Source: Afipia massiliensis (GTDB lineage Bacteria; Pseudomonadota; Alphaproteobacteria; Rhizobiales; Xanthobacteraceae). From it: a stretch of DNA of 64,000 bases. A program made the translations under genes and the position numbers. Numbering within the stretch: the first letter of the stretch is position 1; every line of letters starts with the position of its first letter. The stretch covers positions 3,535,501-3,599,500 of the forward strand of contig NZ_LBIA02000001.1 in the NCBI RefSeq assembly GCF_001006325.2, in the 5' to 3' direction. The notes under the pieces are model-generated. The model worked only from the letters and a program-made list of their open reading frames with translations, did no database searches and had not been told where the DNA came from. Shown here one piece after another: positions 16,506-17,050 of this stretch.

Positions 16506-16858
16506 GAGTATTGAATGTTCTTCTAATCGGACCAAAGCAGGGCAAGGCAGGAGACTGACCCAACTCATAGGCCTGTCCGTTCGTCGCTCAAAATGATTCA
16601 AGCAAGCTATCCCCCACCAACACGCCGCAGTGGAGAAGATGGCGGAAACGCTTGATTTGCGCCGCGCGATCGTTTCGCGCACGTCATTCAGCGAAACTTC
16701 CGGGCGGCTGTTTCAGGCTTGCTTCAAACGATTGCCTGAAGCTGCTGACATACAAGACAGATGATCAGCCACATGGCTCTGATGTCAGGGAGTTCCACCG
16801 AAAGAACTTCGCAAAAAGAACGCTGCCTCCAATTGGGAAGCGGCGGTATCATAAGAAA
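16506..16858. other. Gene-free region upstream of dnaB
   Basis: About 350 bases separate the dnaB start from the tRNA-like pair. It should hold the dnaB promoter. I see no coding frame, repeat or clear terminator for the tRNA-like transcripts. Confidence 0.6.
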
Positions 16859-16944
16859 TGGAGGAAAGGGACAGGATTCGAACCTTCGACACGGTTTCCC
16901 GTGTGCCGCGTTAGCGGTGCCTTAAGCCACTCAGCCACCTTTCC
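16859..16944 (-). pseudogene. tRNA-Ser-like gene without an anticodon loop
   Basis: The minus strand reads as a type II tRNA with encoded CCA (complement of 16859-16861). The acceptor stem GGAAAGG/CCTTTCC is perfect; the D arm has GTGGCTTAAGGC; a long variable arm ACACGG-GAAA-CCGTGT has six perfect pairs; the T loop is TTCGAAT. The anticodon arm, however, is only CCGC-TAAC-GCGG: four pairs and four loop bases where a normal arm has five pairs and seven. The T stem has one mismatch and one extra base lies between it and the acceptor. The discriminator base is U, not the G expected for serine. Probably a decayed tRNA-Ser, but acceptor and variable arms are oddly intact. Confidence 0.7.
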
Positions 16945-16974: not shown

Positions 16975-17050
16975 TGGAGGCCCAGCCTGGATTTGAACCA
17001 GGATATGAAGCGTTTGCCGCGCTCCCGCGTAGACTTTCCGCCACCGGGCC
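16975..17050 (-). pseudogene. tRNA-Cys-like gene with G33 and no D-loop GG
   Basis: The minus strand folds as a standard-length 76-base tRNA including CCA. Acceptor GGCCCGG pairs with CTGGGCC (one G-U); the T arm CCTGG-TTCAAAT-CCAGG is perfect; the anticodon stem GAGCG/CGCTT closes a seven-base loop CGGCAAA. In register the anticodon is GCA (Cys) and the discriminator is U73, both cysteine identity elements, but position 33 is G instead of the universal U. The D loop (GAAAGTCTA) lacks the G18-G19 pair that docks onto the T loop. It is probably non-functional in normal decoding. Confidence 0.7.

Follow-up and report, generated by a model that had tools for sequence, protein, structure and literature searches.

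Several described systems resemble the RNA that we report here. The non-proteinogenic tRNA-Gly of Staphylococcus aureus is a paralogous tRNA used for non-ribosomal transfer in building the peptidoglycan bridge (PMC4052509, PMC8007984); changes in its T stem, A51-U63 among them, have been proposed to explain how it escapes EF-Tu, and the change from G51 to A51 is described among the marks of this cell-wall tRNA (PMC4052509). The RNA from Afipia shares A51-U63, and a comparable role is what we propose for it; however, the S. aureus tRNA has a UCC anticodon and carries glycine, whereas the Afipia RNA has a truncated anticodon arm and a T-stem bulge. The tRNA-Other of Bacillus cereus is described as a tRNA-like gene with no function in translation (PMC3399842), as the Afipia gene would be, judged from its sequence; tRNA-Other is located beside a genomic island and is contained in larger RNAs, whereas the Afipia genes form two families in 13 genomes, and one of them (family A) seemingly ends at its own terminator.

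Allo-tRNAs are tRNA-Ser-like molecules with 8/4 or 9/3 acceptor/T branches that carry identity elements for seryl-tRNA synthetase (SerRS) and are extra to the normal set, and selC* tRNA-Cys is an unusual tRNA with a one-base bulge in its T stem (PMC7609411). Unlike the Allo-tRNAs, the Afipia RNA has no anticodon and has a 7/5 branch with a bulge; unlike selC* tRNA-Cys (bulge at 51a, 8/4 branch, a UCA anticodon in the described cases, and charging with Cys), it is Ser-like and its bulge lies in the 3′ strand. The tRNA-like domain of tmRNA is charged and has no anticodon arm, so the Afipia RNA shares with it a tRNA-like structure that lacks this arm; however, tmRNA carries Ala and an mRNA-like part, whereas the Afipia RNA stands alone as an 86-nt cloverleaf that includes a D arm and a long variable arm. 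Among the matches listed in our search of titles and abstracts of open-licence PMC articles, we found no description of a conserved bacterial tRNA without an anticodon arm.

Results

Structure of the short-arm gene

The window, that is, the whole 64,000-nucleotide stretch that we analyzed, is from the genome of Afipia massiliensis (4,495,198 bases, one contig). Its minus strand, read from 16944 to 16859, encodes a serine-type class II tRNA-like cloverleaf with an anticodon arm of 12 nt instead of the normal 17 (Table 1). The elements occur in the order GGAAAGG-TG-D arm-A-CCGC TAAC GCGG-C-ACACGG GAAA CCGTGT-C-GAAGG TTCGAAT CCT(G)TC-CCTTTCC-T-CCA, that is, a 7-bp acceptor stem, T8 and G9, a D arm with a 3-bp stem, the shortened anticodon arm, a variable arm of 6 bp capped by a GAAA loop, a T arm whose loop is the standard TTCGAAT, and a 3′ end with U73 and an encoded CCA. 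The first-pass annotation, made from the sequence alone, had described a long-variable-arm tRNA with the anticodon arm CCGC-TAAC-GCGG, a U discriminator, and CCA, and the minus-strand reading confirms this description; absent from that annotation was the unpaired base at 16872, in the T-stem 3′ strand, an extra base needed by none of the 49 genes that ARAGORN calls in the A. massiliensis genome. Free-energy folds of the gene did not reproduce the full cloverleaf, with z only −1.3 to −1.7.

Table 1. Features of the short-arm locus, with coordinates in the window.
Feature	Coordinates	Strand	Basis or comment
Short-arm tRNA-Ser-like gene, family A	16859..16944	-	86 nt including CCA; covariance-model match, recurs in relatives
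Acceptor stem, 5′ strand GGAAAGG, pairs with 16863-16869	16938..16944	-	7/7 pairs kept in 12 distinct genes; A-U/G-C exchange at 4-69
D arm, GAGTGG loop, 3-bp stem	16919..16935	-	Sequence reading and alignment
Anticodon-arm remnant CCGC-TAAC-GCGG, 12 nt	16906..16917	-	Arm of 10, 12 or 14 nt in relatives
Long variable arm ACACGG-GAAA-CCGTGT, main serine identity feature	16889..16904	-	Identity role as described in PMC9976931
T arm, TTCGAAT loop, one extra base in 3′ strand	16870..16887	-	Sequence and alignment of relatives
Bulged T-stem base between positions 63 and 64	16872..16872	-	Extra base in 12/12 distinct aligned genes
Discriminator U73 and encoded CCA	16859..16862	-	Sequence reading
Second tRNA-Cys-like gene, upstream neighbor; loop CGGCAAA (G33, not U33), U73, CCA	16975..17050	-	ARAGORN; beside family A in 11/11
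Anticodon loop of second tRNA-Cys; GCA kept, position 33 is G	17013..17019	-	Sequence reading
Intrinsic terminator CGCCGCTTCC-CAATT-GGAGGCAGCG (one mismatch), then TTCTTTTT	16813..16845	-	Terminator scan

Two families in Afipia

We built a covariance model from nine short-arm genes and ran it over 29 Afipia genomes. Neither the model nor alignment A4 includes the decayed family A copy in genome G004 (alignment A1 does), identical rows were entered once, and G043:C771, a contig-end copy of the same family A sequence, was not counted as a third gene. Short-arm genes (<90 nt) were found in 13 of the 29 genomes. Family A, to which the gene in the window belongs (U73, 12-nt arm), occurs in 11 genomes (G000, G001, G004, G013, G016, G017, G019, G041, G042, G043, and G044); family B, with G73, occurs in 10 (G000, G001, G002, G013, G014, G017, G019, G041, G042, and G043), and its A. 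massiliensis member (genome G000) is located at G000:C1:3880745-3880828. The acceptor stem of family B (GGAGAGG/CCTCTCC, with one G-U pair in G042) and its G73 are as in the normal tRNA-Ser(CGA); its arm, CCGC-RY-GCGG, is 10 nt long, with a 4-nt insertion in G013 that makes it 14 nt. Thus, the arm is 10, 12, or 14 nt in the short-arm genes and never 17.

As 16 of the 29 genomes are without the gene, it is not essential to the genus. Full-arm orthologues in close relatives, which the first-pass annotation held would speak against a function, were not found: each of the 16 non-carriers has no more than four matches to the model, as many as there are normal tRNA-Ser isoacceptors, and in 26 genomes ARAGORN calls no tRNA-Ser within the stretch (up to 1.4 kb) upstream of dnaB. 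Separately, A. clevelandensis has a seventh model match (G013:C1:1811900-1811989; 90 nt, 53 bits) besides its two short-arm genes and four normal tRNA-Ser genes.

Searches beyond the 29 genomes returned the short-arm gene from Afipia. An exact DNA pattern run over the GTDB r220 species genomes (84,980) matched 18 stretches, all of them in Afipia (A. massiliensis, A. birgiae, A. clevelandensis, and further strains and MAGs). In a family-wide model search of 391 genomes from 47 genera, 128 genomes, Afipia included, had a match at 1e-14, a threshold that could miss more diverged short-arm genes; among the matches listed, no short-arm gene was found outside Afipia at this threshold, all being 90 nt, the normal length. 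A spacing pattern that demands exact GGTTCGAATCC, run over 385 alphaproteobacterial genomes, hit 90; beyond the two A. massiliensis genes themselves, the matches were read by eye as tRNA-Tyr.

We also considered a mobile element and rejected this reading. Nine of 72,556 plasmid records matched, all at 60–80% identity and none a short-arm relative; the plasmid spans exceed the matched query segment by 4–5 nt, which a normal arm would produce, and the two that we read are tRNA-Ser(CGA). The exact short-arm pattern is absent from IMG/VR, and two of four phage matches, when examined, both proved to be a different Ser-like tRNA with a shortened loop. This tRNA has the arm GTCCT-AACGC-AGGAC in Aeromonas phage B614 (L196:291-373, annotated as tRNA-Arg) and an AATGC loop in Aeromonas phage avDM4 (L197:286-380, unannotated), that is, either a 5-nt loop or 4 bp with a 7-nt loop that lacks U33; it may represent an independent instance of a serine tRNA that does not decode.

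Detection and relation to normal tRNA-Ser

A combined tRNA and tmRNA scan of the window with ARAGORN did not call the short-arm gene; its sole call was the tRNA-Cys at 17050-16975. With the Rfam tRNA model RF00005, family A scores 23.9 bits and family B 23.4 bits, both under the 29-bit cut-off, so that both families fall into a blind spot of detection. Predicted pseudogenes and tRNAs of undetermined type were, as described, removed from a 2026 survey that examined 4-bp anticodon stems across 42,109 genomes (PMC13092985). The A. massiliensis genome holds a third sub-threshold tRNA-like match (G000:C1:371985-372059, 15.9 bits), also uncalled by ARAGORN.

All four normal tRNA-Ser genes (GGA, CGA, TGA, and GCT) are present in A. 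massiliensis, so decoding does not depend on the short-arm gene. Family B is closest to tRNA-Ser(CGA), with 69 of 83 aligned bases identical (83%), followed by tRNA-Ser(GGA) with 67 of 83 (81%); relative to tRNA-Ser(CGA), it has a 7-nt gap over the anticodon loop (its placement ambiguous by one base) and one inserted T-stem base. Family A shows roughly the same distance to each of the four isoacceptors (73–77%), and we dropped its derivation by deletion from tRNA-Ser(GCU) for this reason.

We also considered that the gene could be a remnant or relative of tRNA-Sec or allo-tRNA. The Rfam tRNA-Sec model RF01852 does match the gene in the window, weakly, with 25 bits, and unusual acceptor-T branches are described for both allo-tRNA and selC* tRNA-Cys (PMC7609411); however, the score is well under the gathering score of 47, the acceptor stem stops at 7 bp (U8 is opposite C and adds no eighth pair), an anticodon is lacking, and family B is nearest to the organism's own tRNA-Ser(CGA). 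As the acceptor/T branch of the short-arm genes is 7/5 plus one bulged base instead of 8/4 or 9/3, geometry and score together led us to reject tRNA-Sec and allo-tRNA as identities, and we consider even a remote kinship of this kind extremely improbable.

Conservation and decay

Family B has a mean identity of 96.2% in the comparison of eight of its ten carriers (without G002 and G043), whereas the 100 bp upstream (partly PilZ coding sequence) have 66.0% and the 100 bp downstream 48.9%; tRNA-Ser(CGA) has 99.4% in the same genomes. For family A, compared in seven of 11 carriers (without G043 and without G004, G016, and G044, in which it occupies other locations), the mean identity is 97.5%, and the 60-bp flanks have 65.4% and 53.3%. 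Thus, the short-arm genes are almost as conserved as tRNA-Ser(CGA), and because they recur at 96–97.5% mean identity while their flanks have drifted to 49–66%, their tRNA features are far beyond chance; judged by this comparison, the short-arm gene is real and recurrent, not a one-off.

In the 12 distinct genes, 25 of 25 pairs are standard, a count that overstates the mini-stem of family B, whose innermost pair is impossible, as it would leave a loop of only 2 nt; for family B, a realistic hairpin is ACCG-CRYG-CGGU. Two pairs, 4-69 in the acceptor and 50-64 in the T stem, have both of their bases exchanged, always between A and B, so they count as two inter-family differences and not as many independent events. 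The variable arm has 6 bp in all 12 genes. All 12 also have A51-U63 where the four normal tRNA-Ser genes of A. massiliensis have G51-C63; however, because A51-U63 is common in other isotypes (18 of the 49 regular tRNA genes of this genome), it is weak evidence, and the really unusual feature of the T stem is the bulge alone. The sequences thus show that the acceptor stem, the D and T loops, and the long variable arm are kept under selection, whereas the anticodon loop is lost.

These data bear on the alternative that the genes are pseudogenes, duplicates of a tRNA-Ser that lost the anticodon arm by deletion and persist by chance. Decay does occur: the family A copy in G004 has stem mismatches and broken pairs, and in G015, read by eye, only a T-arm-like remnant is found beside the tRNA-Cys where the sister genome G016 has the gene (in which the encoded CCA reads CCG). 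However, chance persistence is largely refuted by the difference in identity between genes and flanks, and the double-sided changes between the families also argue against it, as does the dnaB tree (27 genomes, including one whose dnaB is partial; read without support values), in which the ten B carriers form one clade that includes no non-carriers; the A carriers are scattered. We judge this alternative very unlikely. The suggestion in the first-pass annotation of a recent pseudogene is therefore contradicted for most carriers, as the genes are found in 13 of 29 genomes at nearly the conservation of tRNA-Ser(CGA), with decay in G004 and G015; its other suggestion, a tRNA-like RNA used outside translation, fits.

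Genomic surroundings and the second tRNA-Cys

In all 11 carriers, family A is preceded by a second, odd tRNA-Cys; this pair occurs in four different surroundings. In eight of the 11, it is located between this tRNA-Cys and dnaB (in G013, 2 kb away; for G043 and G017, as seen at contig ends); in G004, G016, and G044, it is elsewhere, still behind the tRNA-Cys, in three surroundings that share no gene. Thus, the position upstream of dnaB, which the first-pass annotation proposed to follow across Nitrobacteraceae, holds for most family A carriers, whereas the gene itself was seen only in Afipia and three of its 11 carriers have it at other sites.

In our own scan, performed without a shuffle control, a strong hairpin and T run directly follow family A in nine of 11 loci, those of G016 and G044 being unrelated in sequence; G013 and G004 have only poor or distant matches. 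The terminator in the window is, by itself, at chance level (one found versus 1.0 expected in shuffles). Family A appears to be transcribed with the odd tRNA-Cys and to end at its own terminator, as read from the layout of these loci. At all ten family B loci, a PilZ gene precedes the short-arm gene by 16–35 nt (as identified by Pfam for the A. massiliensis protein only), and family B is without a clear terminator, with one weak match in the ten loci. The PilZ-domain gene encodes 88 aa and is located upstream of family B on the same strand (L066:8444-8710, +).

A further explanation that the same conservation data fit is a regulatory decoy or sensor: the RNA could have SerRS, RNase P, an enzyme that modifies tRNA, or another RNA as its binding partner and act by titration or by reporting serine charging, with no transfer of serine. 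The Bacillus cereus pseudo-tRNA offers a precedent as a tRNA-like element inside a regulatory RNA (PMC3399842), and family B, so close behind the PilZ gene, could be part of a longer RNA. However, a decoy has no obvious need for CCA, an exact acceptor stem, or a T-stem bulge, and the seemingly self-terminated family A does not suggest a longer regulatory RNA; we consider this explanation rather unlikely.

The second tRNA-Cys is itself extra, that is, a normal tRNA-Cys(GCA) gives a full-length match (92–100% identical) in all 29 Afipia genomes. At position 33, the odd gene has G in the window; other carriers have A or C, except G004 and G016, which have U. Decoding requires U33. GCA and U73, both retained in the window, are described as cysteine identity elements (PMC9976931). 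With these kept and U33 lost, the two partners, tRNA-Cys and tRNA-Ser, may follow the same pattern, in which charging is kept and decoding is let go.

Other unusual tRNA-Cys genes were seen in these genomes. A related tRNA-Cys near carB (L083:8895-8969, minus strand) keeps GCA and has U33 changed to C in A. massiliensis; in 11 other Afipia genomes, ARAGORN gives the tRNA-Cys near carB a 6-nt loop. The G009 copy has lost GCA. The odd tRNA-Cys genes at G000:C1:2251894-2251968 and 3552475-3552550 are called by ARAGORN and are absent from the RF00005 list even at E 10. Partial 3′ copies of the normal tRNA-Cys (G017:C70:16055-16098; G043:C200:549-595 and 1758-1801) are 44–47 nt long, 96–100% identical, and at most 3 kb from an intact gene, the pattern left by elements that integrate into tRNA genes.

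Synthetases and a possible user enzyme

A dedicated second SerRS was not seen: the SerRS N-domain (PF02403) has a single match in each of 27 of the 29 genomes and none in G016 (250 contigs) and G043 (84% complete). Nor was a dedicated second CysRS: PF01406 identifies one CysRS with >340 bits in 26 of 29 genomes, two pieces in G008, and only weak matches in G009 and G043, and the remaining matches are weak and partial. FemABX/GNAT transferases are described to include known users of seryl- and other aminoacyl-tRNAs (PMC12945691). As a candidate partner enzyme, PF09924 has no match in the 29 Afipia genomes and matches seven of 14 control genomes; PF14028 likewise has none in the 29, but also none in the 14 controls, and so is uninformative.

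Discussion

We consider it highly likely that the short-arm RNA is functional and does not decode. That it is charged with serine is probable: serine identity is described as independent of the anticodon (PMC9976931), so charging of an RNA with this arm is plausible. Whether it then acts as a serine donor we put at about even. Our best reading, to which we give an even chance, is that the gene is a functional derivative of tRNA-Ser that was taken out of translation and serves as a seryl donor elsewhere.

In the mechanism that we envisage, the short-arm gene would be transcribed, family A together with the odd tRNA-Cys up to its own terminator, and the RNA would be charged by the housekeeping SerRS, because that enzyme relies on the variable arm and the acceptor end and not on the anticodon. 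The discriminator of family A is U73 instead of the preferred G73, which could lower its charging with serine. The seryl-RNA would be unable to pair with a codon, the T-stem bulge and A51-U63 would probably weaken its hand-over to EF-Tu, and the seryl group would then be available to a putative non-ribosomal transferase.

An unusual role on the ribosome would also accommodate a charged RNA of this shape, that is, codon-independent entry into the A site with a protein in place of the anticodon arm, as SmpB replaces this arm for tmRNA. A charged tRNA-like RNA without an anticodon arm that enters the ribosome is indeed described in tmRNA (PMC3985003); however, no reading frame is attached to the 86-nt gene, and its T-stem bulge would argue against ordinary delivery by EF-Tu, so that we regard such a role as highly improbable. 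Identity with tmRNA itself was rejected, as there is no mRNA-like tag frame and a terminator-like site lies directly behind the gene.

The seryl-donor reading can be extended, tentatively and with more doubt than confidence, to a second tRNA set in Afipia: an anticodon-less tRNA-Ser and a broken-loop tRNA-Cys, made as a paired transcript, would serve an as yet undescribed non-ribosomal pathway as its dedicated seryl and cysteinyl donors.

The comparative evidence indicates that this RNA family is real and selected, seen so far only in Afipia. The known non-ribosomal tRNA-Gly is described as retaining its anticodon, so that charging and decoding are difficult to separate there (PMC8007984); a natural tRNA in which the charging end is kept and the reading end is lost separates the two cleanly. 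If the RNA is charged, it would mark a pathway that uses seryl-tRNA and that could be traced by pull-down; if the reading as a donor pair is true, Afipia would have a natural bacterial aminoacyl donor without any anticodon.
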